From a virus, in IMG/VR virus record IMGVR_UViG_3300044640_001478, positions 1 through 38,105 of that record: a DNA stretch of 38,105 nucleotides. The stretch is one strand, 5' to 3'. This document shows, in pieces, positions 24,426 to 37,915 of the stretch. The notes under the pieces were generated by a model, which had not been told where the DNA came from, did not search any database, and saw nothing but the letters and a program-made list of their open reading frames with translations. Every line of letters begins with the position of its first letter. Within the stretch, counting starts at the first letter, position 1. The translations under genes were made by a program, and so were the position numbers.

Positions 24426-24511
24426 ATCACATCGCAGTTATGCACCCTCTCCACCGTCACTACCTCGCCTCGCCGCGCCTGGCCCACTTCCGAACTCCCA
24501 CCCTCCTGCCG

Positions 24512-24536
24512 AACTTGTAAGAGACCCTTACAAGTT
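24512..24536. terminator. perfect hairpin between convergent operons
   Basis: AACTTGTAAG - AGACC - CTTACAAGTT: a perfect 10-bp inverted repeat with a 5-nt loop, lying between the rightward lysis operon and the leftward cassette-like genes. There is no T tract on either side, so it could be a factor-assisted terminator or an operator instead. The rest of 24426-24608 shows no coding potential; a GTTATGC box at 24437 resembles an attC half-site. Confidence 0.5.
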
Positions 24537-24608
24537 GCCTGTTCCGCCAGCTCCCCCTCGGCATAGACCGCCTTTGCGTGCTGGGTGATGTTTTGGGGCG
24601 TGGTGTCG

Positions 24609-24667
24609 AACTAACGTGTGAGTTAAGGCCGCTGCGCAGCAGTCGGGCCTTGAACGACGGGTTAGGC
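24609..24667 (-). repeat. attC-like site A
   Basis: 59 bp. On the minus strand it reads R'' GCCTAAC, then CGTTCAAGGCC as L'', a GC-rich hairpin tip, GGCCTTAAC as L', and ends at an R'-like GTTAGTT. This is close to the layout of the aadA-type attC, including the one-base difference between TTCAAG and CTTAA that gives the extrahelical base. By that asymmetry the site points left. Confidence 0.85.
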
Positions 24668-24703
24668 GTCACCCGCGACGACGCCGCACACAAAGGAAAC
24701 GCA

Positions 24704-24892
24704 ATGTTTGGAATGCTCGAATCTCTGGCCAAAGCTGCTACCGCCGTGGTAACGGTGCCTGTTGCCGTTGTTGCCGATGTGGTGACGCTGGGCGGCGCAC
24801 TGACGGACAAGGACAAGCCCTACACCGCCGACGCCGTGGGCGACATGGTGGACAACCTGAAGGACGCCGCGCGCCCCAATGGTGGCAAGTGA
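24704..24892 (+). CDS. small conserved phage/plasmid-type hypothetical (cassette gene)
   Basis: 62 aa with RBS AAAGGAAA 3 nt before ATG 24704 (a longer in-frame start at 24578 would run through attC A and is rejected). It has an amphipathic N-terminal helix, VVTVPVAVVADVVTLGGALT and KDKPYTADAVGDMVDNLKDA. Similar short proteins recur in proteobacterial phages and plasmids; role unknown. It is the only rightward gene of the array, flanked by sites A and B, with its TGA one nt before attC B. Confidence 0.75.
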   Translation: MFGMLESLAKAATAVVTVPVAVVADVVTLGGALTDKDKPYTADAVGDMVDNLKDAARPNGGK

Positions 24893-24893
24893 C

Positions 24894-24944
24894 GCCTAAC
24901 CTGTCTTATCGTTTTCTCCCGTGCATAACACGTCGCAGTTAGGC
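24894..24944 (+). repeat. attC-like site B (degenerate centre)
   Basis: 51 bp with perfect outer boxes GCCTAAC (24894-24900) and GTTAGGC (24938-24944). The inner complementarity is weak (TGTCTTATC against GCATAACA), so orientation is uncertain. The right box supplies the TAA stop (24939-24941) of the leftward gene beginning at 25151. The sequence before the right box (CGCAGTTAGGC) resembles the half-site CGCAGTTATGC at 24434. Confidence 0.65.
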
Positions 24945-25151
24945 AGCACGGGCAGCCGCCAGCGCCACCAAGATTGCGTCCAGTTCTTCCCACCGGAACG
25001 CGCCAGCCATCCGCAACGGCATATCTGGCCCTGCGCCGTGCACCATGATCGAAGCGCCTTCGCAGTTCGACCAGGTGTTGATGGTCACGGTCATCTTGCC
25101 GGCGTCCACGAAAATCTCTTTGCTGTCGGTTTTCAGTTTTTCGAGTTTCAT
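24939..25151 (-). CDS. small conserved hypothetical (cassette gene)
   Basis: 70 aa from ATG 25151, preceded on the minus strand by GGAGAAACGA as RBS. An upstream extension would read through attC C and is unlikely. The C-terminal half (TWSNCEGASIMVHGAG, RMAGAFRWEELDAILVALAAAR) has a pattern seen in short proteins of proteobacterial phages; function unknown. Its TAA lies in the right core box of attC B. Confidence 0.75.
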   Translation of the reverse strand: MKLEKLKTDSKEIFVDAGKMTVTINTWSNCEGASIMVHGAGPDMPLRMAGAFRWEELDAILVALAAARAA

Positions 25152-25162
25152 TCGTTTCTCCT

Positions 25163-25216
25163 GCCTAACTGCCCGTTCCAGCGGACGCATTCGCGCTGCT
25201 GAACGGCGCGTTAGCC
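25163..25216 (+). repeat. attC-like site C
   Basis: 54 bp: GCCTAAC, CCGTTCCAGCGGACGC, short tip, GCGCTGCTGAACGG, GTTAGCC. The left arm has one extra C compared with the right arm (TTCCAGC versus GCTGAA), the asymmetry expected of an attC, giving a rightward orientation. It is the most typical short attC of the array. Confidence 0.88.
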
Positions 25217-25393
25217 CGCATTCCATTTCCCTGCACACAGATCGAGAAAGTCCTCGGGGTCAAGCTCAACAACGTAGTCGCCGTCGCCGTGGGACAGTGG
25301 GTCTGACTTCACATCAGCTACGAGTCGTTCCGCCTTCGCAATCTCTTTACCCCAGTTCCTTTGCATTTCTGCGGTGTATTTCCTCTTTTCCAC
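25211..25393 (-). CDS. small hypothetical (cassette gene)
   Basis: 60 aa with a GTG start at 25393 (GAGAGGA about 5 nt upstream on the minus strand). It is charged and helical in the first half (KRKYTAEMQRNWGKEIAKAERLVADV) and acidic later (DGDYVVELDPEDFLDLC). No family recognised. Its TAA is formed by the right box of attC C. Confidence 0.65.
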   Translation of the reverse strand: MEKRKYTAEMQRNWGKEIAKAERLVADVKSDPLSHGDGDYVVELDPEDFLDLCAGKWNAG

Positions 25394-25430
25394 TTAATTC
25401 CTCTCGTCGAGGTTAGCTCGAACGTTAGGC
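25394..25430 (+). repeat. attC-like site D, left half degenerate
   Basis: The right half GGTTAGCTCGAACGTTAGGC (25411-25430) is a standard L'-R' end, almost identical to the right ends of sites E and H. The expected left GCCTAAC is absent; only a short CCTC/GAGG stem (25402-25414) stands in its place. Probably a truncated site, perhaps no longer recombinogenic. Confidence 0.6.
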
Positions 25431-25556
25431 CGCTTGGGGCCGCTCGGGGCGCATGCACTTGCCGTTGTGCGCGCAGTGCGGTTGCCATACGCAGTCGTGC
25501 TCGGTGGCGCACTTCCGGCTGCTCTCGGTTGCCAGCGCGTCACGCAAGCGCTGCAT
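25425..25556 (-). CDS. small Cys/His-rich protein, possible 3' part of the upstream gene
   Basis: 43 aa: RLRDALATESSRKCATEHD...CVWQPHCAHNGKC. Four Cys and three His are spaced like a small metal site. The start ATG 25556 lies in the last 48-bp repeat, and the frame overlaps the end of the coiled-coil gene, 17 nt before its stop. This pairing suggests either translational coupling or an old single gene split by a frameshift at the repeat boundary. TAA in the attC D core. Confidence 0.55.
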   Translation of the reverse strand: MQRLRDALATESSRKCATEHDCVWQPHCAHNGKCMRPERPQAA

Positions 25557-25800
25557 GCAGCCGGCGCAACTCTTTGGCGGCTTCGTACTTCTCCAGCGCT
25601 GCATGCAGCCGGCGCAACTCTTTGGCGGCTTCGTACTTCTCCAGCGCTGCATGCAGCCGGCGCAACTCTTTGGCGGCTTCGTAGTACAGCCGCTCCCCGT
25701 GCTGCAATCCGTGGTCTTCCAGCCGGTCAGCGAGCGGCCTAACCCCTCGCCCAACCTGACCCAAATGGGCAGGCTGCGCCGTCTCTTGTTTATGCTTCAT
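25540..25800 (-). CDS. coiled-coil repeat protein (cassette gene)
   Basis: 86 aa from ATG 25800, which lies inside attC E with GGGGCAGCAG as a possible RBS. The N-terminal part has LADRLEDHGLQHGERLYYEAAKELRRLH-like sequence common in short phage proteins; the C-terminal part is three copies of the 16-residue unit KYEAAKELRRLHAALE encoded by the 48-bp repeats. It stops at TGA 25540-25542, where the frame is broken relative to the following Cys-rich ORF. Confidence 0.65.
   Translation of the reverse strand: MKHKQETAQPAHLGQVGRGVRPLADRLEDHGLQHGERLYYEAAKELRRLHAALEKYEAAKELRRLHAALEKYEAAKELRRLHAALA
25549..25683. repeat. 48-bp tandem repeat, about 2.8 copies
   Basis: Identical units start at 25561, 25609 and 25657 (the last truncated by divergence at 25683), with a 12-bp leading remnant from 25549. 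The copies are exact, so the expansion is recent or actively varying. The unit is a multiple of three and encodes 16 residues on the minus strand. Not a CRISPR: there are no spacers. Confidence 0.95.
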
Positions 25801-25838
25801 CTGCTGCCCCTTTAATCAGGTTAGCTCAATCGTTAGGC
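25737..25838 (+). repeat. attC-like site E
   Basis: 102 bp. GCCTAAC (25737-25743) and GTTAGGC (25832-25838) are the outer boxes; the inner arms are CAACCTGA and TCAGGTTAG. The right end TTAGCTCAATCGTTAGGC is of the canonical type, so the site points right. The tip region contains the ATG (25800) of the leftward coiled-coil gene. Confidence 0.85.
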
Positions 25839-26087
25839 ATCAAAGCGCAGCGCCTCCAGTCGCGCAAGTTGCCTGCGCACGCTGGCAATCTTTACTTTGC
25901 GCATTACCTCGGCGCGAGCCAAAGCACTTTCGCGCGTGCGGTGCCACTGTTTACCCTCGCCGTGCAGGTATTCTTGCCGGGGCAGCGATCCGACCCTGAC
26001 AATTGAGCTGCCAACTTCCCCATATTCCTCGCCCTCTTGCTCGATCAATCCCTCTGTAAGGGCGTATTTGCTGTTCCAAATCTTCAT
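25833..26087 (-). CDS. conserved small phage-type hypothetical (cassette gene)
   Basis: 84 aa from ATG 26087 with GGAG 7 nt upstream. It starts KIWNSKYALTEGLIEQEG and ends KIASVRRQLARLEALRF, a pattern shared by a group of short proteins on proteobacterial phages and plasmids (helix at the end, β at the start). Function unknown. TAA in the right box of attC E. Confidence 0.75.
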   Translation of the reverse strand: MKIWNSKYALTEGLIEQEGEEYGEVGSSIVRVGSLPRQEYLHGEGKQWHRTRESALARAEVMRKVKIASVRRQLARLEALRFDA

Positions 26088-26104
26088 TGCTTCTCCAAGT
26101 TGAT

Positions 26105-26162
26105 GCCTAACTCGCGCTTCGAGCCGACCGCCTAGCGGCGGCAGCTCCAACTGGCGTTAGGC
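26105..26162 (+). repeat. attC-like site F
   Basis: 58 bp: GCCTAAC, CTTCGAGCCGACCGCC, TAGC tip, GGCGGCAGCTCCAACTGG, GTTAGGC. The left arm matches the canonical TTCAAGCCGACGCC closely, which favours a rightward orientation, though the arms are nearly symmetric. The right box gives the stop of the gene from 26393. Confidence 0.85.
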
Positions 26163-26393
26163 CTTCTTCATTGCGGCCAAGCACCGACGGCCTAGGGCTT
26201 CTCTGGCGTCATACCAGGCATCTTCAAGTGCAGACAGTTCGCCAACTTCAAAGTCAATGCACGCAATGGCGTCTGTGATGTACTGAATTGCTCCCATCAA
26301 GTCCCAAAATGCAGCCGCCTCGGCGTGTACCGCGTAGTTCTCTTCGGCCCACTTCGCCACTGCGTCGCGCTGCTTTTTGCTCATGTCTCTCAT
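26157..26393 (-). CDS. small helical hypothetical (cassette gene)
   Basis: 78 aa, likely start ATG 26393 with AGAGGACA upstream; ATG 26384 is possible. Predicted all-helical, acidic in the middle (IACIDFEVGELSALEDAWYDA) and basic at both ends. No family recognised. The TAA is in the core of attC F, and attC G lies just before its promoter-side end, so the gene fits exactly between two sites. Confidence 0.7.
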   Translation of the reverse strand: MRDMSKKQRDAVAKWAEENYAVHAEAAAFWDLMGAIQYITDAIACIDFEVGELSALEDAWYDAREALGRRCLAAMKKA

Positions 26394-26423
26394 CTTGTCC
26401 TCTCATCTTCGTCTACCCTGCGG

Positions 26424-26509
26424 GCCTAACTGTGCGTTGAACCGGACGCCTGACGACGTCCTTGTGTCAGCATACTTCGGGGCGGGCACCGGTTAACTCC
26501 GCGTTGGGC
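26424..26509 (+). repeat. attC-like site G
   Basis: 86 bp: GCCTAAC, CGTTGAACCGGACGCC, longer variable tip, GGCACCGGTTAACTCC, GTTGGGC. The left arm GTTGAACCGG has an extra G compared with the right arm (CCGGTTAAC), the expected extrahelical base, giving a rightward orientation. The leftward ORF from 27198 enters this site, and its last residues (PNAELTG) are encoded by it. Confidence 0.88.
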
Positions 26510-27198
26510 GTGTGTCCGCGTTCGTCGCCGGCCTCCAGAATGCGCAACAGTCCGCGCAGGTTAATCCGCGCAATTGCGCTGGTCATGGCGTCCACGTCTT
26601 CTCCGGTCGGGTGCAGCACTTGGCGCAGAAGCATTGCGTAGTAGGCCGCGCTGTCGCCACGGATGAACACTCCGCACCAGTCGTCCCCGAATCGCGTCGG
26701 GCCAGTCTCAACACGCGGCATCTGAGGCGGTAGCTCGCGCACGCCTAACCCATCTCGCAAGCGCGACCCATCGCAACGGGTGGCGTCGTGGTTCTCGGTA
26801 GCGTCAGTGGTCATCGGTCTGGGCGGCTTAGCTCGAACGTTTGGCTTCAAGCCTCGTAATTGTCCGGAAGGTTGTTGCTGCCTTGGCTGTGCTGTGGCGC
26901 TTTGCGGTACTGGTAGCAGGGCAGGCTCATCGCTAGCCGCAGCGCCATTTTTGTTGGCCGGTTTTCTCCGTAGCCTCGTCACGAGACGAAGCACGTCATC
27001 ACGCACGCACTCATCGTGCCCAGGCATGTAGGTGTAGTGGCAGCCTTTATACGTCATCCCGCCATAGTGACGTGCGATGCTGAAAAATCCCATGCTCACG
27101 TCGCACAGCACAAACGGCGCGCGTTTGTGCAGAGTTTGCGCGGCCTGAACCTCGTCTGCTGTCAGGTAGCTAGTGCGATTTCGGCCGTTGGCTTTCAT
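26467..27198 (-). CDS. hybrid ORF read through attC H; two joined hypothetical domains
   Basis: 243 aa from ATG 27198 (22 nt after the SSB stop). Residues 1-115 form one domain (SYLTADEVQAAQTLHKRAPF, YMPGHDECVRDDVLRLVTRLR). Residues about 118-152 are translated attC H sequence (Arg/Asp/Thr-rich). The last 90 residues (VETGPTRFGDDWCGVFIRGD...SAAYYAMLLRQVL) resemble short stand-alone proteins encoded next to attC sites in other bacteria. The second domain may also be made separately from GTG 26744 or ATG 26721. An in-frame fusion created by cassette insertion behind an existing gene is the simplest reading. Confidence 0.6.
   Translation of the reverse strand: MKANGRNRTSYLTADEVQAAQTLHKRAPFVLCDVSMGFFSIARHYGGMTYKGCHYTYMPGHDECVRDDVLRLVTRLRRKPANKNGAAASDEPALLPVPQSATAQPRQQQPSGQLRGLKPNVRAKPPRPMTTDATENHDATRCDGSRLRDGLGVRELPPQMPRVETGPTRFGDDWCGVFIRGDSAAYYAMLLRQVLHPTGEDVDAMTSAIARINLRGLLRILEAGDERGHTPNAELTGARPEVC
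26743..26845 (+). repeat. attC-like site H
   Basis: 103 bp. GCCTAAC (26743-26749) and GTTTGGC (26839-26845) with arms CGCAAGCGCGACCC and GGGCGGCTTAGCTCG. The right end matches those of sites D and E. Rightward orientation. Unlike the others it lies wholly inside an open leftward frame. Confidence 0.8.
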
Positions 27199-27220
27199 GG
27201 CTGTCGCTCTTTCTCTGTCG

Positions 27221-27652
27221 TTAAAACGGCACGTCGTCATCTATCGACGCGAGCTCCGGCATTGGCAGCGCGTCTGGCTTTTGCTGCGGCTTCTGAACCT
27301 GTGCAGGTGCGGCGGCAGCAGAATCTCCGCGCTCCGCACGCGACCCAGCAAGCTCAATCTCGCTCACCCGCGCAGCGAGCTTGTAGCCAGTGCTGCCGTC
27401 GCGCTTGACGTACTCCTCGATGTGCGGGTCTGTGCACGTAACGCACACCTGCGTCCCTGCCGTCAAATACTGCGCCAGCGCCTCCGCAAGTTTGCCCCAA
27501 AGCGTGGCCTCTACCCATTGCGTCGGGCGCTTGCCGTCGTTGCCTTTGAGTCCGTAGGCGAAGGCGAGCGAGAGGTTGCAAACCGGCGTGTTGTTCGCGG
27601 TGTAGCGCAGTTCGGCATCGCGGCCCAGGCGGAACAGTCCGGTGAGGATCAT
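27221..27652 (-). CDS. ssb: single-stranded DNA-binding protein
   Basis: 143 aa. OB-fold pattern GLFRLGRDAELRYTANNTPVCNLSLA, WVEATLWGKLAEALAQYLTAG and YVKRDGSTGYKLAARVSEIEL, then a disordered Ala/Gln/Pro linker and the acidic tip DDDVPF that recruits partner proteins. Coats ssDNA in replication and recombination. Start overlaps the Gp157 stop (TAATG), so the pair is co-translated. Confidence 0.93.
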   Translation of the reverse strand: MILTGLFRLGRDAELRYTANNTPVCNLSLAFAYGLKGNDGKRPTQWVEATLWGKLAEALAQYLTAGTQVCVTCTDPHIEEYVKRDGSTGYKLAARVSEIELAGSRAERGDSAAAAPAQVQKPQQKPDALPMPELASIDDDVPF

Positions 27653-28155
27653 TATTTAATCTCCAGTCGTTGGTTTTGCGTGAGTCTGCATCCGGGCACA
27701 TCTGCTCCTGCTTTGAGCGCAGCGGCTACGGCTTTCTTGTCGACCGCAAGCGGCGGCGGCTCTGGCTGGCGCAGGTACTCCGCCGGCACCTGTTTGGCAT
27801 CGAACACGTCCACCTTGGCCGGGTTGCTGCGCACGGCCAGCGTGAAGTACGGCGACTCGATCTTCTCGATGCCGGCGCGCTGCATGTTGGCGAGCAGGTA
27901 GTCGCGCAGGCGCTCTTCACGTTTTTCCAGCGCCTCCGCCTGTTTGTACAGTTCATCTGCTGCGGCAACCTTAGCCTTTGCGACAACCGAGAGATTCCGC
28001 GCGAACATAGCGACATTCGTCGCCTTCTCTTCCAGATCGCCACGCATGCATTCCAGCGTGTCGCGCACGACTTCATCCGGCAGCGACATGTCGGCAAGCT
28101 GCTCGGCAACCTGCCGGTATTCGTCGGCCAGCACGTACAGGGCGGGGAGCGTCAT
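27652..28155 (-). CDS. siphovirus Gp157-family protein
   Basis: 167 aa matching the Gp157 layout: helical N-terminus with a long coiled coil (VAAADELYKQAEALEKREERLRDYL, about 65-90), then ESPYFTLAVRSNPAKVDVFD and LRQPEPPPLAVDKKAVAAALKAGADVPGCRL. It is usually found between recombination and SSB genes of siphoviruses, with a proposed but unproven role in phage recombination or resistance. ATGA overlap with the upstream gene. Confidence 0.9.
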   Translation of the reverse strand: MTLPALYVLADEYRQVAEQLADMSLPDEVVRDTLECMRGDLEEKATNVAMFARNLSVVAKAKVAAADELYKQAEALEKREERLRDYLLANMQRAGIEKIESPYFTLAVRSNPAKVDVFDAKQVPAEYLRQPEPPPLAVDKKAVAAALKAGADVPGCRLTQNQRLEIK

Positions 28156-28826
28156 GCGGCCACCTGTTCAGGTTGGGCCTGTGCCGCACTCTGGTCGGCC
28201 TGTGCAGCCGTCGCTTTCAACGACTCGCTTTCTGCCTTCCAAAGATCTGCGTAGCGCGGCGCGGCTTTCAGCGTTGTGTGGACGCGCAGCAGTTCGGCGG
28301 TTCCAGACATTGCGGCCTCGCGCAGCTTGGCGAGAAGCTCTACCTCGACGGTGCCCATGTTGCGCGGCGGGGGCTGGTCGTCAAACCCATCGTCCGGCAC
28401 TTCTTCTGCTGGAGTGGTCGATAGCCCCGCGTTCATCATCACGACAACATGCGCGAAGGCGGCGCGGCATGCGCGACTGATTGCGCGGGTCTGCGCCATC
28501 GCGCGGCGCGCGTACTCGGGGCGCTTGGCCCACATGCTTTCGTCGTCGCCGACAAAGCCCTCGCTCTCGGCGATCACCTGGCCGGTGTCCATGCGCCGCA
28601 CTACGCCAAGCGCGCGGAACCCGCCAGCAACTTTCTCGACTTGGCTTGCGCTGGCGACGCATCCGTGGGCGATGGCGATGCTTTGCCAGCCCTCGACCTG
28701 CACATACTGCCGGCCCTGAATCTTGCGCGCGGTCTTGAGTACGATTTCCTTGCACATTCCCGCCGCGTCGGTGGACTGGCGGAAAAGCGCCGGCCCGGTG
28801 TTGATGGTGGTCAGTTCGGTAGACAT
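28152..28826 (-). CDS. putative single-strand annealing/recombination protein
   Basis: 224 aa from ATG 28826 with AAGGA about 10 nt upstream. The core KIQGRQYVQVEGWQSIAIAHG, GGFRALGVVRRMDTGQVI and YARRAMAQTRAISRACRAAF is a conserved phage pattern whose TRAxSRACR helix recalls annealing proteins of the Erf/Rad52-like group. It is adjacent to Gp157 and SSB, the usual recombination set. Annealing activity is inferred from context and weak similarity. Confidence 0.65.
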   Translation of the reverse strand: MSTELTTINTGPALFRQSTDAAGMCKEIVLKTARKIQGRQYVQVEGWQSIAIAHGCVASASQVEKVAGGFRALGVVRRMDTGQVIAESEGFVGDDESMWAKRPEYARRAMAQTRAISRACRAAFAHVVVMMNAGLSTTPAEEVPDDGFDDQPPPRNMGTVEVELLAKLREAAMSGTAELLRVHTTLKAAPRYADLWKAESESLKATAAQADQSAAQAQPEQVAA

Positions 28827-28975
28827 TCGACGATCCTTTCGCTGTTGATCCAGTTCGGCACTTCTGCGCACGGTGGCGCGTTGTCTTGTGCGCCGTAGCG
28901 CGGTTCTTCCTGTTGCCAGAGTTCGAGCGGCTGCTGCTGCTGCCACCAATCGGCACCTCCTGTGTCGTCTCTCAT
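28811..28975 (-). CDS. small Trp/Gln-rich hypothetical
   Basis: 54 aa; ATG 28975 overlaps the preceding stop (ATGA) and has GAGGACAAA upstream. Sequence DWWQQQQPLELWQQEEPRYG then CAEVPNWINSERIVECL. The stop overlaps the start of the annealing-type gene. Good coupling on both sides supports expression; no family recognised. Confidence 0.5.
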   Translation of the reverse strand: MRDDTGGADWWQQQQPLELWQQEEPRYGAQDNAPPCAEVPNWINSERIVECLPN

Positions 28976-29238
28976 TTTGTCCTCGCCATCCGCGCCGATC
29001 CGCCAAAGCATCCGCGCTCGTCCCCGCTATAAGTGTGGATCGTGTAGGCCAGTTCTCCGCGCCCGCACTTTGCCATAGCGGCTTGACGGTCGGCTTCGAT
29101 CAGCGCTCGGGCGTCGCGCTCGCCGACTGCGGTGAACCACCACTGCACGGGGCCAGCAATCAGGACGGCAGCGACGATCACGGACACGATGCACCCTGCG
29201 GAAAATCCACCAACGTAAACTGTGCGTGAGTCAGTCAT
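28972..29238 (-). CDS. small membrane-anchored hypothetical
   Basis: 88 aa with one transmembrane segment (VGGFSAGCIVSVIVAAVLIAG, residues 9-29), then FTAVGERDARALIEADRQAAMAKCG and a Cys-containing C-terminus. RBS is not evident; the gene lies 34 nt downstream of attC I. Unknown function. Confidence 0.6.
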   Translation of the reverse strand: MTDSRTVYVGGFSAGCIVSVIVAAVLIAGPVQWWFTAVGERDARALIEADRQAAMAKCGRGELAYTIHTYSGDERGCFGGSARMARTK

Positions 29239-29274
29239 TTTAGTAATCCGTGATTTTCTAATTCGACAGCAAAA

Positions 29275-29331
29275 TGATCAATCGTTCGAGCTAAGATGCC
29301 GTTCGCGGTCAGCTTGAGCGAGATGTTATGC
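29275..29331 (-). repeat. attC-like site I
   Basis: About 57 bp. Read leftward: GCATAAC, CTCGCTCAAGCTGACCG, short tip, CATCTTAGCTCGAACG, then a degenerate right box ATTGATC. Both inner arms match the canonical attC (TCAAGC...CTTAGCTCGAACG). It directly follows the HD hydrolase gene, whose TAA is in the GCATAAC box. Orientation is the same as the gene, unlike sites C-H. Confidence 0.7.
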
Positions 29332-29841
29332 AGCACTGTTAGCCCCACTCGCCTGCATCCGCGCAAGCGCCAGCAGGCGCTGGTCGGCTCCAGTCAGTCG
29401 GGCCAGCAGCATGCGCTTTTCCTCAAGGTACACGGCTGCAAACTTCGGGTTGTGCATCACGATGCTGCTGGTGTTGCTGATGAGGTCTGCGCACTTTATG
29501 GTCTGCATCCAGCCTGGCGCGTTGCCCAGGCGGTCGCGGCTCATGGCCTTGCGCTCGGCGCGGTTGCCTTTTTCCAGGTCGCTCAACAGGCGCACGCCAT
29601 CGGCAACGGCATCGCCAAACGCGGCGCGTAGCGACGTGACGGTCACGCCTTGGTCTTCCACGCAGTCATGCAGCCACGCCACCGAAACCATCATGTCGGC
29701 AAAGTCGGGCGGCGCCACGGTTGCCACGATGCCAGCCACTTCGGCCAGGTGGTCGGTGTACGGGTTGTTCGTGTACTTGCGGCGCTGGGCTGCATGTACC
29801 TCGCGGGCAAACATCATTGCTTGGTAGGCGGTTCGGTACAT
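29326..29841 (-). CDS. HD-domain (p)ppGpp hydrolase-like protein (MESH1/SpoT-type)
   Basis: 171 aa from ATG 29841, with GGAG 10-13 nt upstream. Single HD domain: His31 in PYTDHLAEV, His58-Asp59 in WLHDCVEDQGVT, Glu62-Asp63 of the VED motif, and Asp119 in IKCADLISNTSSI. This order (H...HDxVED...KxADxxxN) is the hydrolase half of RelA/SpoT and the small MESH1-type hydrolases that remove pyrophosphate from (p)ppGpp. No synthetase domain. It would counter the host stringent response or act on related nucleotides. Flanked by GTTATGCAGCAC and GTGCTGCATAAC (inverted), so it looks like a cassette. Confidence 0.82.
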   Translation of the reverse strand: MYRTAYQAMMFAREVHAAQRRKYTNNPYTDHLAEVAGIVATVAPPDFADMMVSVAWLHDCVEDQGVTVTSLRAAFGDAVADGVRLLSDLEKGNRAERKAMSRDRLGNAPGWMQTIKCADLISNTSSIVMHNPKFAAVYLEEKRMLLARLTGADQRLLALARMQASGANSAA

Positions 29842-29892
29842 TTTCTCGCTCCGGAGTTGGTGCTGCATAACTTTGACATTTGTATCCTCCTG

Positions 29893-30216
29893 TCAGGCAG
29901 CCGCCGCGCGCCGCACCAACGCCACAGCAATCGTTTTGCCCTCGCCGCCGCAGTGAAAGCGCCACCCTGGAAACTCAGGAAACTCAATCTTAGTGTCTTG
30001 CGTGCAGTCGTCCCGCGACACGTACAGCACCGGGCATCCGTCGTGACTTTCCGTGCTGCCGCTGATATAAGCGCGGTCGTAGGAGTCGATGTAGAAGCAC
30101 ACCGCATCTTTCCCTCCGGCCATCATGTAGCCTAAGCAGTGCACCATACGCACGTCGCCTTGTGTCAGTATTCTGAAAGTCGTTTTTTTAATTTGTCGTT
30201 TTTTCAGGTTTTTCAC
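29893..30216 (-). CDS. hypothetical protein
   Basis: 107 aa with a GTG start at 30216 and GGAG 7 nt before it. Basic N-terminus (KNLKKRQIKKTTF), then β-rich VHCLGYMMAGGKDAVCFYIDS and DGCPVLYVSRDDC; ends RRAAAA. The start lies 12 nt downstream of the methyltransferase stop. No family recognised. Confidence 0.6.
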   Translation of the reverse strand: MKNLKKRQIKKTTFRILTQGDVRMVHCLGYMMAGGKDAVCFYIDSYDRAYISGSTESHDGCPVLYVSRDDCTQDTKIEFPEFPGWRFHCGGEGKTIAVALVRRAAAA

Positions 30217-30228
30217 GTGTCGCTCCGC

Positions 30229-30993
30229 CTAATTTGCACTAGCCATTACAAAGCGGGCCGCAAGCTCTGGCACTATGGTATTGCCAAATCCAGCCAGGAT
30301 CGCGGATAGCCCATCATGGTTGCGCACAAGAGTGGGTCTACGTTCGCCCCCACGATCCGATTTCCACCAGCCGCCAAATACAGTGAGGCCAGGTAGTCCT
30401 CCAGGTGCGATCTGTGGTCGCCACTCTCCGCCCGTCTCCAGCACACCGTGTGCGCCCCCATGCTTGCCCGTGGTGTCGGCAGCCACCCAGTAGATGCGCG
30501 CTCGTGCGTGCGATCCACCGATGCTTGCAGCCGGCAAATCTGCCGCCGCAGCGGCGTAGTCTGCGCTCTCCAGGTCAGACGCCACATGATCCCACCATGC
30601 GTATCCAGCAGCGCCGGCAACCTGTTCGCCAAAAACGCTTGGAGGGCGACACTCGCGGATGAGGCGGAAAAACTCAGGCCACAAGTGGCGCTGATCGGAA
30701 AAGCCGCGCCGCTGTCCTGCCACGCTGAACGGCTGGCATGGACAAGACCCCGTCCAGACAGGTCTGTCATCGGGCCATCCTGCAAGACGCATGGCTGCGC
30801 TCCATCCGCCGATGCCGGCGAAGAAATGGCACTGTGTGTAGCCTCGCAAGTCATCGGGTTGCACCTCTGTGATGCTTCTTTCGTCGACGTCGCCTGGAGC
30901 GATTTTGCCGGACGCTATCAGGTTGCGCAGCCACTGAGCAGCAAATCGGTTGTGCTCGTTATAGTAATTTTTCGCGGCGATTGTTTTTTCCAT
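30229..30993 (-). CDS. phage C5-cytosine DNA methyltransferase
   Basis: 254 aa, shorter than cellular enzymes. Motif I CHFFAGIGGW (55-64), motif IV GSCPCQPFS with catalytic Cys86, motif VI replaced by FGEQV (EQV rather than ENV), motif VIII SHARARIYWVA, and C-terminal motif X GFGNTIVPELAARFV. The N-terminal 50 residues are an extra helical part (YYNEHNRFAAQWLRNLI). It likely protects phage DNA from restriction. Its start lies inside the end of the upstream gene; a second long frame is embedded within it. Confidence 0.88.
   Translation of the reverse strand: MEKTIAAKNYYNEHNRFAAQWLRNLIASGKIAPGDVDERSITEVQPDDLRGYTQCHFFAGIGGWSAAMRLAGWPDDRPVWTGSCPCQPFSVAGQRRGFSDQRHLWPEFFRLIRECRPPSVFGEQVAGAAGYAWWDHVASDLESADYAAAAADLPAASIGGSHARARIYWVAADTTGKHGGAHGVLETGGEWRPQIAPGGLPGLTVFGGWWKSDRGGERRPTLVRNHDGLSAILAGFGNTIVPELAARFVMASAN
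30273..30854 (-). CDS. ORF embedded out of frame in the methyltransferase gene
   Basis: 193 aa, same strand as but in another frame from the methyltransferase. It starts ATGACTTGCGAGG (MTCEATHSAISSPASADG) at the DNA encoding motif I, includes ALQAFLANRLPALLD, RLTWRAQTTPLRRQ-ICRLQAS and TGWLPTPRAS, and ends near MMGYPRSWLD. From memory, predicted proteins of this form (MTCEE..., TWK..TPSGRS, GWPTP) recur beside phage cytosine methyltransferases. It may be a genuine overlapping gene or a by-product of conserved codons; coding status is open. Confidence 0.4.
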   Translation of the reverse strand: MTCEATHSAISSPASADGAQPCVLQDGPMTDLSGRGLVHASRSAWQDSGAAFPISATCGLSFSASSASVALQAFLANRLPALLDTHGGIMWRLTWRAQTTPLRRQICRLQASVDRTHERASTGWLPTPRASMGAHTVCWRRAESGDHRSHLEDYLASLYLAAGGNRIVGANVDPLLCATMMGYPRSWLDLAIP

Positions 30994-31540
30994 TGCGTTT
31001 TTTTGGCTGAGTTGCTTTTTTTGCTGAGTCGGCTATGTTTAGTTGTTCAGCACCAACAGCCGCCACTTGCGCGGCCAGGTCTGCGCACTCGCGCTGCACG
31101 TAGGCCAGCGGCTTGTACGTCTCGCCGTGGTGCGCCGTGAACGGGTAGCCGCGCGTCAGCGCATAGTGCTCGTCTTGCGGGCTGCGGTCGCCGCTATGGG
31201 CGCAATCGAACCCGAACCACCACACATGCTCCGGCTCGCCTGGCTCCGGGATGTGGCACACGCCGCGCGACTCGTCTTCACCGGGCTGGCACCTGTTAGC
31301 AAACGTCAGGCCGCCATGCACTGCCGCGTCCACGTCGTACCATTTCTTGCCGTACCACGGGTGCCCATCGGCAACGCCAACGTAGCCGCACCAGTGCCCG
31401 CGGAGCTCGTGTCGCACAGCCAAGCACGGCAGGCCGGTGGCCGCGTCGGGCCATTGCAGCTTGTCGGGCTCGCTGTCCCACGGGCCAGCGGGCCAGCCCA
31501 GCGCGGCACGGTCAATCGTGGTGTAGGTCTTTGCTTCCAT
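30959..31540 (-). CDS. conserved phage hypothetical protein
   Basis: 193 aa. It has the pattern of a frequent phage family: KLQWPDAATGLPCLAVRHEL, HWCGYVGVADGHP, VHGGLTFANRC, VWWFGFDCAHSGD, and a C-terminal AYVQRECADLAAQVAA helix, ending basic (KKRNGKNNRREKLL). Conserved Cys, His and Trp suggest a small metal or nucleotide fold; function unknown. The start region is preceded by GGAGAAG on the minus strand. Confidence 0.8.
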   Translation of the reverse strand: MEAKTYTTIDRAALGWPAGPWDSEPDKLQWPDAATGLPCLAVRHELRGHWCGYVGVADGHPWYGKKWYDVDAAVHGGLTFANRCQPGEDESRGVCHIPEPGEPEHVWWFGFDCAHSGDRSPQDEHYALTRGYPFTAHHGETYKPLAYVQRECADLAAQVAAVGAEQLNIADSAKKATQPKKRNGKNNRREKLL

Positions 31541-31565
31541 CTTCTCTCCATTGCAGCGCAGTGCT

Positions 31566-31605
31566 GCATAACTGTTGCTTTAAGCGGACGGCCTACGGTC
31601 GACGC
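31566..31605 (+). repeat. attC-like half-site J
   Basis: GCATAAC (31566-31572) followed by TTTAAGCGGACGGCC looks like the left half of an attC. I found no matching right half. The preceding GTGCTGCATAAC is repeated exactly at 29860-29871 and inverted at 29325-29336. The stop codon of the gene from 31918 falls in TTTAAGC. Confidence 0.45.
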
Positions 31606-31918
31606 TGATCGCTGACCTGGACGGCCACGGCATCTGGTCACTGTCCACCACGGCGCGTTCCTGTGTCACGGCCAGTGCCTCAACAGGATTAACAAGCTGC
31701 GCACGCGCGCGCGCAAGTTTGTGAATCGCTGTGCTGATGGAGTTTGCGAGTCGCGCGCGCGCGTCGTCGCGCGTCACCGGAAACGAAAAAATGTCAGCCT
31801 CTACGTGATTGTCCAGACTATCCTGAACTCCGTTGAGCACTGCGATTGCCGACAGCACGACGTCTCGCGTGCTGTACAGGTGCCCGTCGTCGCCCACTTT
31901 GTAGCTGTTGCAGTCCAT
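31580..31918 (-). CDS. first gene of leftward early operon, hypothetical
   Basis: 112 aa from ATG 31918, RBS AGGAGCAAAAG. Acidic/neutral, mainly helical (VVLSAIAVLNGVQDSLDNHV, ISTAIHKLARARAQLV). The last residues (WPSRSAISVDRRPSA) are encoded by DNA overlapping half-site J, so the original 3' end may have been replaced. Directly downstream of PL. No family recognised. Confidence 0.65.
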   Translation of the reverse strand: MDCNSYKVGDDGHLYSTRDVVLSAIAVLNGVQDSLDNHVEADIFSFPVTRDDARARLANSISTAIHKLARARAQLVNPVEALAVTQERAVVDSDQMPWPSRSAISVDRRPSA

Positions 31919-31968
31919 CTTTTGCTCCTGTTTGGTTTAGTTGGTGCCTCGTAGTGGGCACAGAAAGG

Positions 31969-31996
31969 AGAATACCGCAATCGGTAGCTTTGTCAA
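31969..31996 (-). promoter_or_regulatory. leftward early promoter PL
   Basis: On the minus strand TTGACA (31996-31991), a 16-nt spacer and TATTCT (31974-31969) form a near-consensus sigma70 promoter about 50 nt before the first leftward gene. The -35 box overlaps the left operator by two bases (31995-31996), suggesting repression by the Cro-like protein. Confidence 0.75.
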
Positions 31997-32057
31997 CCGT
32001 TTTCGGCAGAATTACCGTAAACGCGCGATGCGCGCTCGTTATCTTCCGAAAACGGTT
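31995..32057. promoter_or_regulatory. divergent operator pair
   Basis: AACCGTTTTCGG (31995-32006) and its exact reverse complement CCGAAAACGGTT (32046-32057) flank a 39-bp spacer; a weaker copy, ATTACCGTAAACG, lies at 32010-32022. One copy overlaps the PL -35, the other abuts the PR -35. Layout expected for binding sites of the adjacent Cro-like protein; binding is inferred. Confidence 0.7.
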
Positions 32058-32084
32058 GCATTTTCTCTTCGATCCCTCTATGCT
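32056..32084 (+). promoter_or_regulatory. rightward early promoter PR
   Basis: TTGCAT, a 17-nt spacer and TATGCT (32079-32084). The start point would be about 7 nt downstream, at or next to the ATG of the Cro-like gene (32091), so the message could be leaderless. Confidence 0.65.
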
Positions 32085-32090
32085 GCGCGA

Positions 32091-32282
32091 ATGGACATAT
32101 TCAGCCCAGTTCGCCGCTACCTGCAGTCAGTGACTGAGTCGCAGGTAGAGGCGCTAGCGCGAGATACAGGGGTTCCACTTGCGACTCTGCTCAAGATCAA
32201 GTACGGGCAGACGCGAAACCCTCGCGTAGCCACCGTGCAGGCTGTGTACACGCATCTTTGGCCGTCCGGGGATGCATCATGA
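32091..32282 (+). CDS. Cro-like small HTH regulator
   Basis: 63 aa. SVTESQVEALARDTGVPLATLLKIKYGQTRN has the helix-turn-helix pattern (A.DTGVPLATLLKI as the recognition part), flanked by FSPVRRYLQ and AVYTHLWPSG. No dimerisation/protease domain as in CI. There is no RBS before ATG 32091, consistent with a leaderless message from PR. It is the only regulator near the divergent promoters and should bind the inverted operators. Confidence 0.75.
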   Translation: MDIFSPVRRYLQSVTESQVEALARDTGVPLATLLKIKYGQTRNPRVATVQAVYTHLWPSGDAS

Positions 32283-32292
32283 ATCCAGTCAC

Positions 32293-32365
32293 CGCGGGCA
32301 TGCGCGCGGAGCGCAGCCGGCCACATAGCCCGGCCCGTGCGGGTTCGACTCCCGCGCCCGCAACC
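32293..32365 (+). tRNA. initiator-tRNA(fMet)-like element, anticodon CAT
   Basis: Acceptor CGCGGGC / GCCCGCA leaves a C1·A72 mismatch as in bacterial initiator tRNAs, followed by A73 and CC (no encoded A76). T arm GCGGG-TTCGACT-CCCGC is perfect; variable loop CCCGT; anticodon stem CCGGC/CCCGG has one mismatch with loop CACATAG (CAT at 34-36). Odd points: A at position 33 instead of U, A instead of U at position 8, and a D loop of only five bases. It may be a degenerate or specialised phage tRNA. A rho-independent terminator follows. Confidence 0.45.
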
Positions 32366-32377
32366 TTTTGCTCCTTC

Positions 32378-32412
32378 CCCGCCTTGTGAGTCCTTCCAAG
32401 GCGGGTTTTTTT
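32378..32412 (+). terminator. rho-independent terminator
   Basis: CCCGCCTTG / CAAGGCGGG perfect 9-bp stem with a 10-nt loop followed by seven T. It ends the Cro-like/tRNA-like transcription unit and would separate it from the next rightward genes unless antitermination occurs. Confidence 0.92.
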
Positions 32413-32434
32413 GGCCTTTACTTTGGAGAATGAA

Positions 32435-32644
32435 ATGCAAGCCAAACGCATGACTCCAGCAGATATCGGCACTGGGTATGTGAAATGCCATACCTGTGAC
32501 GGGAAGTTCTCGCACGTTTTTTCGCAATCCGCAATGCAAAGACTACCGAAAAACTACAGCGGCGAGATGTGTTCTGACTGCAAACTGTGGATGTGCAGGA
32601 CAGACATGCTGGCGTCGCCAGTGGAGGTGGAGGTAATGGCATGA
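32435..32644 (+). CDS. small zinc-ribbon-like protein
   Basis: 69 aa from ATG 32435, RBS TTGGAG. Two CxxC pairs (Cys18/21 and Cys46/49) in VKCHTCDGKFSHVF and GEMCSDCKLWMC would bind one zinc. Unknown function; ATGA overlap with the next gene. Confidence 0.65.
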   Translation: MQAKRMTPADIGTGYVKCHTCDGKFSHVFSQSAMQRLPKNYSGEMCSDCKLWMCRTDMLASPVEVEVMA

Positions 32645-32820
32645 GCGCGAAGCGCGAGTTGTGGGTGATAGAAAAAGGCTCGCTGGGAGATTGGGAGTTT
32701 TTCGCGTGTTATGACGAGCAGTCGAACGCGCTCGATCGTATGCGCGACATGATCTACGATGGATTCGAGCCAGAGCGCGTTCGCATGGTGCGCTACGTGC
32801 CGGAGGGGGACAGCAAATGA
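32641..32820 (+). CDS. small hypothetical
   Basis: 59 aa (SAKRELWVIEKGSLGDWEFF..., DGFEPERVRMVRYVPEGDSK), ATGA-coupled to both neighbours. αβ-type small domain of a sort common in early regions. No family recognised. Confidence 0.65.
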   Translation: MSAKRELWVIEKGSLGDWEFFACYDEQSNALDRMRDMIYDGFEPERVRMVRYVPEGDSK

Positions 32821-33143
32821 AAGCAACACGCACCGTCGAGCACAGCGGCGGGCGCAAGGTGCGCATGCCTACGCGTCAGCCGAAGCCTAAGCCCGTGGAT
32901 CTGCTGGCTGCCTCGCGATCCGCTATCTCGTGGCACCTGGCATCCGGAGCTACTCGAGTGCTGGTTACGGTGACTAAGCGAAAAAATATCGATGTGCTGC
33001 ACGACGGCAACCCTGCCGCGCGCATGGCGCTGGAGCAGGTCGAGCGGCTGCCGATCGCAGACGGCATCGCAGGCTGCTACACGCGCCTTCCCGCTGTCGA
33101 TGCGTTGCGCGACGACCTGATCGCTGCCGGGTGGCGGGCATGA
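32817..33143 (+). CDS. hypothetical early protein
   Basis: 108 aa. Basic N-terminus (GGRKVRMPTRQPKPKPVDLL), then β-rich VLVTVTKRKNIDVLHDG and a C-terminal DALRDDLIAAGWRA helix. Unknown; coupled by an ATGA to the previous gene. Confidence 0.65.
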   Translation: MKATRTVEHSGGRKVRMPTRQPKPKPVDLLAASRSAISWHLASGATRVLVTVTKRKNIDVLHDGNPAARMALEQVERLPIADGIAGCYTRLPAVDALRDDLIAAGWRA

Positions 33144-33149
33144 CCGCAG

Positions 33150-33410
33150 ATGACATGCGCGACGTGCGAAGACAGGGCAGCAGGAACGATCAGGTTCCGC
33201 GCGGACTGCCCCGCGTGCCTGCGCGCGCTGTGGCGCTGGCTGCCGGCGGAGACGCGAGACGGGATCACGGTGCAGTTGCTCGGGATGCACGAGGGGCGGC
33301 AGCCGTTCGGCGCGATGGAGGACAAGCTCCGCGCGTCAGCCGGAATGGAACCCGCCGACAGAACGCCAAAACGTCCGAAACGATCCAGTTCAGCGGTGAC
33401 GCTCAAGTAA
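33150..33410 (+). CDS. small zinc-finger-like protein
   Basis: 86 aa starting at ATG 33150, 6 nt after the previous stop; RBS weak. Two CxxC pairs (Cys3/6, Cys20/23) in TCATCED and DCPACLRALWRW, then a helical and a basic tail (DRTPKRPKRSSS). A competing frame over the same DNA runs to 33550 but lacks a good start. Confidence 0.55.
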   Translation: MTCATCEDRAAGTIRFRADCPACLRALWRWLPAETRDGITVQLLGMHEGRQPFGAMEDKLRASAGMEPADRTPKRPKRSSSAVTLK

Positions 33411-33475
33411 GATGGATCATCGCAAACGGTGGAAACGGCAGCAACGGATATGAGGCAGGCAAGCGCGCTTACGTG

Positions 33476-33637
33476 CGCATCAAGCCCGTTCACACTCCGT
33501 CTGAGTACGAGGAATTTTGCCGAGCGCTGGCGCGGGCTTGCGGATTGTAGACATGTGCATCAAGCCAAATGTCATTTGCTTGAAAATCAATAGCAAGCAA
33601 AATTTCTGTGCGCTGGCGCGGGCTTGCGGGGTGTAGC
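33476..33637 (+). repeat. imperfect tandem duplication in gene-poor spacer
   Basis: Direct copies of GCGCTGGCGCGGGCTTGCGG occur at 33525 and 33611, each preceded about 50 nt upstream by GCATCAAGCC (33478 and 33557). The encoded tails are CRALARACGL and CALARACGV. The first copy may be the 3' end of a lost gene. 33411-33638 has no convincing complete gene; the second copy sits in an unusually AT-rich stretch (33551-33608). Confidence 0.7.
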
Positions 33638-33638
33638 T

Positions 33639-34607
33639 GTGAACTCTCTCATTACAGCCGTCGAATCGGCACCTGTATGTCAGCGCGATACACAGATCGT
33701 TGCTCTGTGCGACCGCGCGATTGTCGACCTACGCGAGGCGCGCACGATTGAAGATGTGCGCAGCATCGGCGACATCGCCGCCGCGTTCCGCGAGTACGCC
33801 CGCAAAATTAAGGCGGCTATCGAAGCGCAAAACGCTACGCAAACTGTGGTGCTTCTTGCCGAAGCCCGCATCGGCGCGGAACTGAAAGCGGCGCAGGAAC
33901 GGGGGGAACTGGCGCGGGCTGGAGATAACCCGAATGTCCGGACTTCGGACAATCAAAGAACAACCCTAGACGCTCTCGGCATCCCCCGCCAGCGCGCCAG
34001 CGAGATGCGGCAGCTTGCCGACATAGGAGAAGTCGGTATCCGCGAGGCGGCGCGCGTGGCGAACGATGCCGGCGAACCGTTGACGCGATCCGCAGTGTTC
34101 AATCACCGCGCGCAGGGCACCGGAGAAAACGAGTGGTACACGCCCGCCGAGTACGTTGAGGCCGCCCGCTTGGTAATGGGCGGGATCGACTTAGACCCGG
34201 CTTCTAGCGAGACAGCGAATCGCACTGTCAAGGCTTCGCGCATCCTGACTCAAGAGCAAAACGGCCTCGCGGTTTCGTGGCACGGGCGCGTGTGGCTTAA
34301 CCCGCCATACGCGCAGCCGTGGATTGCGCAATTCGCCGAGAAGATGGTCGAAGAGTTCAAGTCCGGGCGCGTGCGCGATGCAATCACGCTAACCCACAAC
34401 TACACGGATACACAGTGGTTTCACGCGTTGGCCGGCTCCGCCGCTGCCGTTTGCTTCACTCGTGGGCGGATCGGTTTTCTTTCGCCAGACGGCAAGCGCG
34501 CTGCTCCTACGCAGGGCCAGGCGTTTTGCTACTTCGGCGCGAACGTCCCCCAGTTCGCCGAAGAGTTCGCTCGGTTTGGCTTGGTGATGGTGCGCTATGC
34601 GGTTTGA
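33639..34607 (+). CDS. phage DNA N6-adenine methyltransferase with N-terminal extension
   Basis: 322 aa from GTG 33639. The C-terminal part is the Dam/phage adenine-methyltransferase domain: ENEWYTPAEYVEAARLV, GGIDLDPASSETAN (SAM-binding side) and the catalytic NPPYAQPW, then AVCFTRGRIGFLSPDG. Residues 1-140 are helical (IVALCDRAIVDLREARTIEDV, AEARIGAELKAAQERGELA), like ParB/regulatory extensions seen in phage methylases. It may mark origin or whole genome DNA. 11-nt overlap with the next gene. Confidence 0.86.
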   Translation: MNSLITAVESAPVCQRDTQIVALCDRAIVDLREARTIEDVRSIGDIAAAFREYARKIKAAIEAQNATQTVVLLAEARIGAELKAAQERGELARAGDNPNVRTSDNQRTTLDALGIPRQRASEMRQLADIGEVGIREAARVANDAGEPLTRSAVFNHRAQGTGENEWYTPAEYVEAARLVMGGIDLDPASSETANRTVKASRILTQEQNGLAVSWHGRVWLNPPYAQPWIAQFAEKMVEEFKSGRVRDAITLTHNYTDTQWFHALAGSAAAVCFTRGRIGFLSPDGKRAAPTQGQAFCYFGANVPQFAEEFARFGLVMVRYAV

Positions 34608-35151
34608 AGAGTCACTGTCCATAGGCCGCGCCTCCGAGAGCGCAATCGCCAAGTGGCTGCGCTCAAGGGGCTGGGCCGTGCTGCCGGCATACGAAAAGGC
34701 CGGCAGCGAGTTCAAGGGGCCGCAGGTGTTCTTCCCGGAGTCTTGCGCGCTGGTGGCTCCAGACTTCCTTTCGTGGCGGGGCAAGTGCGCGCGATGGATC
34801 GAGGCCAAGCACAAGACCGCATTCTCGTGGCATCGAATCACGCAGCGATGGGTAACTGGAATCGACCTGCGCCACTACATGGATTACTGCGCGCTAGCAG
34901 ACAAGTCGCCGTGGCCCGTCTGGCTGCTGTTTCTTCACACAGGCGGGCAGGCGAAGGATTCGCCCGTTTCCCCTGCCGGCCTGTTCGGTCAGACGCTGGA
35001 CGAACTGCGGCTCCGAGAAAACCATCGGTCGTCGCAATGGGGGCGCAGCGGGATGGTGTATTGGGCGGTTGATAGCTTGATCCGCTTGGCCGACGCCGAT
35101 TCTCTGGCGCAGGATGTGGCGGAAAACGATGAGTGCATGGTGGCCGCATGA
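34597..35151 (+). CDS. PD-(D/E)xK nuclease-like protein
   Basis: 184 aa. APDFLSWRGKCARWIEAKHK provides Asp56 and the Glu69-x-Lys71 pair of the restriction-endonuclease fold; the N-terminal ESLSIGRASESAIAKWLRSRGW helix fits the same fold. Followed by WHRITQRWVTGIDLRHYMDY. Possible Holliday junction resolvase or end-processing nuclease. Coupled to the downstream zinc protein by an ATGA overlap. Confidence 0.75.
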   Translation: MRFEESLSIGRASESAIAKWLRSRGWAVLPAYEKAGSEFKGPQVFFPESCALVAPDFLSWRGKCARWIEAKHKTAFSWHRITQRWVTGIDLRHYMDYCALADKSPWPVWLLFLHTGGQAKDSPVSPAGLFGQTLDELRLRENHRSSQWGRSGMVYWAVDSLIRLADADSLAQDVAENDECMVAA

Positions 35152-35576
35152 GCGACGTTGGCTTGTTCCTCTCGAAGCTGCGCAAGGTGCGCAAGACCGG
35201 CGATGGGCGCTGGCGCGCTGTCTGCCCTGCGCACGATTCGCGCAACGGCACTCAATCGCTGGCCGTGAGAGATACCGGCGACGGGCGAATCTTGGTGAAG
35301 TGCTTTGCCGGCTGCGGCACCGGTGACGTGGTGGCCGCTGTCGGCATGGAGCTTGCCGACTTGATGCCTGAGCGCAGGCTGACCGATGTGTCGATGCCGC
35401 GAGAGCGCGCGCCGTTTTTGCCGTCGGATGCGTTCGACGTGCTGCGCCAGGAGGTGACAACGGCGTGGGTGATCGTGCAGCAGGCGGCTACAGGCGGCGC
35501 TGTGGACGTTGACCGGCTGACACTCGCCGCGCAACGGCTGGATATAATCGGGAGAGCCTGCTATGGGCGCGCGTGA
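35148..35576 (+). CDS. primase-type zinc-binding domain protein
   Basis: 142 aa. WRAVCPAHDSRNGTQSLAV...ILVKCFAGCGTGDVV is the CHC2/toprim-primase zinc ribbon pattern with Cys26, His29, Cys52 and Cys56. No catalytic TOPRIM or polymerase domain is attached; the rest is helical. It probably works with the RepA-like helicase, which begins 14 nt inside it. Confidence 0.8.
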   Translation: MSDVGLFLSKLRKVRKTGDGRWRAVCPAHDSRNGTQSLAVRDTGDGRILVKCFAGCGTGDVVAAVGMELADLMPERRLTDVSMPRERAPFLPSDAFDVLRQEVTTAWVIVQQAATGGAVDVDRLTLAAQRLDIIGRACYGRA

Positions 35577-36936: not shown

Positions 36937-36939
36937 GCG

Positions 36940-37155
36940 ATGTTTCCCCAAACTTTCCCCAAACTTTCCCCAAAGTCTGGCGCCAGAAAACGGTGCGAAG
37001 CGGCTCCCCAAACTTTCCCCAAACTCTCCTCCCCCCCTTTAGGGGGGGAGAGTTTGGGAAGTTTGGGGAAACGCGCCGATCCGGTTGCATTGCGGGAATG
37101 CCAATTCCCCAAACTTTCCCCAAACTTTCCCCAAACTTTCCCCAAACTCCAATGA
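36940..37155 (+). CDS. ORF of FPK/FPQ repeats overlying iterons
   Basis: 71 aa; ATG 3 nt after the helicase stop and TGA 37153-37155 overlapping the next ATG (ATGA). The protein is low-complexity (FPQTFPKLSP units) because it is read from the 11-bp repeats. Coupling on both sides argues for translation, but the DNA repeats themselves may be the selected feature. Confidence 0.4.
   Translation: MFPQTFPKLSPKSGARKRCEAAPQTFPKLSSPPLGGESLGSLGKRADPVALRECQFPKLSPNFPQTFPKLQ
36946..37150. repeat. 11-bp iteron field with hairpin, candidate replication origin
   Basis: CCCCAAACTTT occurs in three direct clusters (36946-36978, three copies; 37006-37027, two; 37107-37150, four), with two inverted copies near 37053-37068. 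The 11-bp period is about one helical turn. Between clusters 2 and the inverted copies, arms at 37018-37037 and 37042-37058 form a strong hairpin with a TTTA loop (C7/G7 stem plus CCCAAACTCTC). Arrangement next to a RepA-like helicase suggests an origin. Confidence 0.75.
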
Positions 37156-37891: not shown

Positions 37892-37915
37892 CGTAGTTGA
37901 TTTTCGATTTACAAT
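37888..37915 (+). promoter_or_regulatory. late promoter candidate
   Basis: TTGACG (37888-37893), 16-nt spacer and TACAAT (37910-37915). TTGACGT also forms the right arm of an inverted repeat with ACGTCAA (37868-37874). AT-rich spacer in an otherwise GC-rich region. It lies across the Q-like stop codon and reads into HNH and the late genes. Confidence 0.6.

Follow-up and report, generated by a model that had tools for sequence, protein, structure and literature searches.

A paSpo-like alarmone hydrolase gene very probably carried as an integron gene cassette in a phage genome

Integron gene cassettes are swappable units that spread antibiotic-resistance genes among bacteria. Among 10,705 phage genomes 17 CALINs have been recorded, and three phages had their attC sites tested (Qi et al. 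2023, PMC9892861); the systems described there comprise attC clusters without the integron integrase (IntI), complete integrons in prophages and junctions of the form G|TTRRRY (the bar marking the integrase cut), and the main text of that study mentions no hydrolase or ppGpp-related cassette. Small alarmone hydrolases (SAHs) have separately been described from phages, paSpo being one of seven SAH subgroups (Atkinson 2011, PMC3153485). PaSpo of Salmonella phage SSU5 (gene SSU5_099) neutralises toxic small alarmone synthetases (toxSAS) and clears tRNA of the mark added by FaRel2 (PMC11559606; PMC7644958, citing Jimmy et al. 2020), and has been used together with CapRel (PMC9712102). Among the substrates of orphan bacterial SAHs are (p)ppGpp, pppApp and NADPH, and these enzymes influence growth (PMC9765508); Aph1 (p)ppApp hydrolases adjoin MuF-Apk2 toxins of prophages, as immunity genes (PMC12226406).

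Here we describe an SAH gene in a phage sequence of 38,105 nucleotides (IMG/VR record IMGVR_UViG_3300044640_001478), the whole of which is termed the window. The window has attC clusters and junctions like those of Qi et al. (PMC9892861) and, in addition, a stray cassette at a secondary site and, relative to a near-identical locus (L001), a gene inverted inside its cassette. A preliminary description of this DNA had proposed a phage-encoded, MESH1-like alarmone hydrolase acting against the stringent response or related defence nucleotides, an idea that agrees with published work; since phage SAHs are already known, the new part is the integron cassette context and not the SAH itself. All evidence considered is the sequence of metagenome contigs. 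The gene and the elements of its proposed cassette are as follows.

29326 to 29841, minus strand: SAH coding sequence, 171 aa, coordinates including the stop codon (PF13328, phrog_990, PDB SAHs, AF2 model)
29276 to 29331, minus strand: attC belonging to the SAH cassette; its R'' (GCATAAC) immediately follows the gene, and it ends CTTAGCTCGAACG|ATTGATC (21.7 bits, E=6.5e-4)
29283 to 29870, minus strand: whole putative inserted SAH cassette, 588 bp, from the T of G|TTATGC to the G of ..GAACG|ATT
29325 to 29336, plus strand: 12-bp inverted-repeat arm GTTATGCAGCAC, R core at the cassette end
29860 to 29871, minus strand: 12-bp inverted-repeat arm, cassette start G|TTATGCAGCAC
29871 to 29879, minus strand: 5' piece of the split small ORF, ATGTCAAAG after AGGAGG, as seen when the flanks are joined
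29235 to 29282, minus strand: 3' piece of the split small ORF, giving the joined product MSKIDHFAVELENHGLLK and a stop that overlaps the ATG of the next gene

The ORF reported in the preliminary description was recovered at the same coordinates, on the minus strand, and the residues named there (H31, H58-D59, E62-D63 and D119) are numbered exactly from the start at 29841. That start is favoured over the ATG of a longer ORF at 29868, because a GGAG Shine-Dalgarno sequence precedes it and near-identical L001 retains the same start context. The reading frame is no product of chance: the protein matches Pfam HD_4 (PF13328) at 44.1 bits against a cut-off of 27.2 (E=2.3e-11) and phrog_990 at E=1.9e-34, while TIGR00691 spoT_relA (E=6e-11) and NF008303 match over the HD part only; at 171 aa it comprises one domain, with no synthetase, TGS or ACT domain. 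Ten residues of the catalytic and substrate sites (R21, H31, H58, D59, E62, D63, R97, K98, D119 and N123) are invariant in the protein and 20 viral relatives of 56-98% identity. The full set of SAH catalytic residues is present and aligns to that of Mesh1 (3nqw), and the RRK, ED, ERK and D-x3-N motifs are as in Mesh1. PDB structures retrieved by sequence were SAHs, Mesh1 and the hydrolase domains of Rel/SpoT.

The preliminary description named a structure siding with other HD families, such as nucleotidases, as grounds for refuting it, and the predicted fold did not refute it. The AF2 model (pLDDT 91.1, pTM 0.88) aligned by VIA-align with the SAH of P. aeruginosa (PaSAH, 6yvc), human MESH1 (5vxa) and Drosophila Mesh1 (3nqw) at Z-scores of 23.1, 22.9 and 22.6, and with SpoT at 18.2; other top matches from Foldseek and VIA-align were C. 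glutamicum RelH and a Leptospira SAH, the top group spanning Z 21-23. The HD superfamily is common to SAHs and to nucleotidases and deoxynucleotide-directed enzymes, and weaker structural matches to YpgQ (12.8), YfbR (7.4) and DatZ (7.3) were found, which would favour a nucleotidase or dNTPase; a Z-score gap of at least 10 separates these from the SAHs, however, and the four motifs are of Mesh1 type, which makes another HD enzyme type extremely unlikely. The protein is almost certainly an SAH-type hydrolase and is predicted to be a Mn-dependent HD 3'-pyrophosphohydrolase resembling paSpo.

PaSpo of SSU5, at 42% identity, is the closest characterised phage homologue. Both proteins are phage-borne stand-alone hydrolases with common motifs, including D-x3-NTSSIV-x3-P-x-F-x3-YL-x-EK, whereas PaSpo has 213 aa with a longer C-terminal tail that the window protein lacks, and no attC was detected around the SSU5 gene. 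The cellular enzymes PaSAH (6yvc) and MESH1 (5vxa, 3nqw), of which MESH1 also acts on NADPH, have the fold and catalytic residues in common with the window SAH at 22-27% identity; by these pairwise figures (42% against 22-27%) the window SAH is a candidate member of the paSpo subgroup. Relatives are encoded in 208 of 50,697 phage records, spanning phages of Rhizobium, Escherichia, Acidovorax and Salmonella as well as giant phages of Pseudomonas and Erwinia, and in 270 plasmid records, some of which are probably phage-plasmids. Burkholderiales chromosomes rarely carry the family (3/399 genomes at E<=1e-20).

To inventory attC sites we used a covariance model whose training set consisted solely of five attC sites from class-1 integrons on plasmids. 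At E<0.005 it identified seven sites in the window: the one listed above, directly after the SAH stop, and six at 24609-26845.

24609 to 24667, minus strand: attC of the cassette cluster (33.8 bits, E=1e-7)
25163 to 25216, plus strand: attC (26.2 bits, E=2.5e-5), its R' G|TT being one edge of a cassette indel relative to L001
25737 to 25838, plus strand: attC (28.9 bits, E=3.6e-6)
26105 to 26162, plus strand: attC (22.5 bits, E=4e-4), at the edge of a second cassette difference from L001
26424 to 26509, plus strand: attC of a cassette missing in L001 (30.2 bits, E=1.4e-6)
26743 to 26845, plus strand: weaker attC match (19.1 bits, E=0.004), R''/R' pair GCCTAAC..GTTTGGC

Eight core R''/R' pairs occur in the window, against a mean of 0.58 and a maximum of 5 in 100 shuffles, and seven of these, some overlapping, are clustered at 24.9-26.8 kb. 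The model also matched sites in L001, in a second locus (L002) and in three other phage contigs, whereas 31 other loci totalling 305 kb, among them the other phages with SAHs, gave zero matches at E<=1. Because no attC lies near the other phage and bacterial SAHs searched, residence of an SAH in a cassette appears special to the window, L001 and L002. The window encodes no IntI and hence no complete integron, but a CALIN plus a stray SAH cassette; the integrase activity for mobilisation would therefore have been supplied from another source or by a genome portion that the contig lacks.

Other features of these regions were also recorded. Several attC sites, of up to 48.7 bits, occur on four IMG/VR phage contigs, three without an SAH (L041, L042, L043) and one, L044, which is the L002 contig, with both SAH and intI; cassette clusters thus look recurrent in this phage group. 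ORFs of the window's cassette cluster lie mostly on the minus strand, against the plus polarity of attC, and belong to no clear family. At window 31042-31640 the 5' end of gene 30959-31540 (phrog_2164) bears a further GTTATGCAGCAC core with an L''-like block, and just beyond the counterpart of this segment L001 has roughly 0.7 kb of additional DNA starting G|TTAGCC; the segment is probably a second decayed cassette, for which the attC model gave no match.

The borders of the SAH cassette are most readily described from its attC site. Its L'-R' end, CTTAGCTCGAACG|ATTGATC, is identical up to the cut to that of the array site at 26743-26845, CTTAGCTCGAACG|TTTGGC. The SAH attC is among the weaker matches and its R' core is not GTTRRRY, a departure that we read as replacement of R' by target-site sequence; the counterpart in L001 scores 29.6 bits (E=8e-6). 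The 588-bp insert, comprising cassette and attC, splits a small ORF at G|AT. When the flanks are joined they form a Shine-Dalgarno sequence followed by ATGTCAAAG|ATTGAT, i.e., AGGAGGATACAA-ATG TCA AAG|ATT GAT..., restoring an ORF of only 18 codons whose TGA overlaps the ATG of the next gene (28972-29238), an arrangement to be expected if a circular cassette had inserted at a secondary G|AT site. By this route, the SAH gene would have been acquired as an integron cassette and inserted within the small ORF, co-directionally with a minus-strand early operon. We consider carriage of the SAH gene on an integron gene cassette very probable. A natural copy of the empty SAH site was looked for and none was seen. 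An empty hairpin site of the form GTTATGCAGCAC-N5-GTGCTGCATAAC was considered and set aside, as none occurs in viral contigs and the G|AT target accounts better for the borders. Locus L032 was also set aside, as a chance pattern match.

Comparison with L001, whose flanks are about 97% identical to the window, documents both gain or loss and reorientation of cassettes. Where the window reads TCGCAG|TTATGC...GGCGCG|TTAGCC, L001 reads TCGCAG|TTAGCC (TTAGCCCGC after the bar), an indel of 774 bp with exact G|TT borders corresponding to window 24436-25210. A second difference occupies 26157-26503, L001 also being without the cassette that ends at the attC at 26424-26509; the border that follows is somewhat divergent. 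The SAH segment itself is inverted (window 29325-29871 relative to L001 4971-5517) inside the 12-bp repeats GTTATGCAGCAC/GTGCTGCATAAC, one arm of which contains the SAH stop codon TAA. A simple crossover within these repeats was rejected as the route of inversion, because the four nucleotides beside the arms (TGTT, GTTG) remain with the flanks. Further copies of the 12-bp repeat precede other genes and occur on other phage contigs, next to a TAAC-N6-TTCAAGC-like block that, by its sequence, resembles the R''/L'' half of an attC site. Elsewhere in L001, a 202-bp piece at 2455-2656 matches window 2894-3095, which follows the terminase gene, at 95.5% identity but is inverted and adjoins the Gp157 region; L001 also has two copies of the 91 bp of window 32889-32979. 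These reflect either rearrangement or assembly error.

An integron that includes an integrase accompanies the SAH gene on the L002 contig, which also carries tail, endolysin and phage-integrase genes. Its SAH is 89% identical to that of the window; the two coding sequences differ at 67 nucleotides, 39 of them at third codon positions, with 33 synonymous and 19 non-synonymous codon changes. The intact IntI of 345 aa matches TIGR02249 at 427 bits against a cut-off of 265, attC sites bracket the SAH gene (L044 12271-12333, 12877-12978 and 13323-13396), and array polarity is canonical, with intI divergent from attC. SAH and attC polarities are opposed in L002 and L001 and the same in the window, where the gene also runs along the minus-strand operon. 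Part of this integron may be host DNA beside a prophage, although one gene beyond the SAH matches phrog_20828. Close relatives of this integrase in viral contigs are confined to three loci, one being L002 itself.

These observations bear on another account, in which chance palindromes or transcription terminators would explain the repeats and attC-like sites, with the SAH an ordinary operon gene and the inversion an assembly artefact. The SAH attC, taken alone, is modest at 21.7 bits. When its DNA fold is ranked by stability among stretches of equal length from this GC-rich window, it does not surpass 57% of them, a stability so ordinary that we did not use fold energy as evidence for attC. 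Chance or terminators would not, however, account for clustered matches at E<1e-4 to an independently built model that is silent in the 305 kb of control loci, for the exact G|TT indels between window and L001, or for a true IntI with an SAH between attC sites in L002; and assembly k-mers are usually longer than these 12-bp repeats, which argues against artefact. We regard this account as largely refuted and, taken as a whole, very unlikely.

What the cassette would contribute to infection is less certain. The preliminary description had noted hydrolase motifs without a synthetase, and a search for RelA_SpoT (PF04607) bore this out: neither the window nor any of 21 related virus records contained such a domain, the control being detected in 12 of 14 genomes. 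A local toxSAS partner or MuF-Apk2 toxin was thereby ruled out and, with no synthetase domain beside it, the SAH does not serve as antitoxin to a local toxSAS; nor does it have the adjoining synthetase that marks Aph1, with which it otherwise compares as an alarmone hydrolase borne by phage or prophage. PADLOC models of defence systems gave no match. If expressed in the infected cell, the SAH would remove the 3'-pyrophosphate of (p)ppGpp or (p)ppApp, that on the 3'-CCA end of pyrophosphorylated tRNA, or both, undoing the product of host stringent factors or of toxSAS of the CapRel/FaRel type, so that with the alarm mark removed translation and growth would be maintained for the phage. Such reversal of host-made 3'-pyrophosphate marks is the best-supported role that we infer; whether the main benefit lies in countering alarmone or tRNA-pyrophosphate defences we judge to be evenly balanced.

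Orphan bacterial SAHs act on (p)ppGpp, pppApp and NADPH and affect growth (PMC9765508), and given this promiscuity the main substrate could differ and the benefit be metabolic, through lowered ppGpp in starved hosts or adjusted NADPH, with no defence defeated. The authors describing phage Adele suggest reprogramming of the stress response (PMC12846349), and our synthetase search disclosed no local defence target in the window and 21 records; yet the nearest characterised homologue, PaSpo, neutralises toxSAS, and a patchy, cassette-borne distribution is more in keeping with an accessory gene for counter-defence than with core metabolism. We therefore hold a metabolic benefit to be possible but rather unlikely. 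Integron cassettes normally serve the host, and prophage MuF toxins have universal immunity proteins in the Aph1 hydrolases (PMC12226406), so the SAH might act as a promiscuous antitoxin for the host's benefit, in lysogenic conversion or as immunity to competitors' (p)ppApp toxins. This is improbable in view of the lack of Apk2 or any other synthetase domain in the window or relatives and of the placement of the SAH in a minus-strand block with Gp157 and methylase genes. Taken together, a paSpo-like SAH, acquired as an integron cassette and used in counter-defence, is a likely explanation of this locus.

Among the other genes of the window, a Gp157 family gene (PF05565, 27652-28155) lies in the same minus-strand block as the SAH, and two DNA methyltransferases, of C5 type (PF00145, 30229-30993) and Dam type (PF05869, 33624-34607), are possibly anti-restriction enzymes. 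Searches for near-identical DNA gave none in the phage collection for window 1-25000 and none in plasmids for window 25001-38105.

A search of the literature, with most subscription journals and preprints outside it, retrieved no description of a phage integron cassette encoding an alarmone hydrolase, so that within the literature searched the link between phage SAHs and phage integrons, each known separately, is new. We tentatively suggest, as a wider possibility that is at present doubtful, that a group of phages of Burkholderiales type use phage-borne integrons, as cassette arrays that in some cases include an integrase, to capture, shuffle and reorient counter-defence genes, the SAH, acting on alarmones or pyrophosphorylated tRNA, being one cassette whose orientation relative to the early operon can flip. 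A cassette of this kind opens direct tests, of attC recombination during infection and of rescue by the SAH on CapRel-type hosts. A toxSAS-undoing hydrolase on a mobile cassette would provide a route by which phages and integron-hosting bacteria could trade counter-defence genes, and phage counter-defence cassettes would mirror the bacterial integrons that store anti-phage defences.
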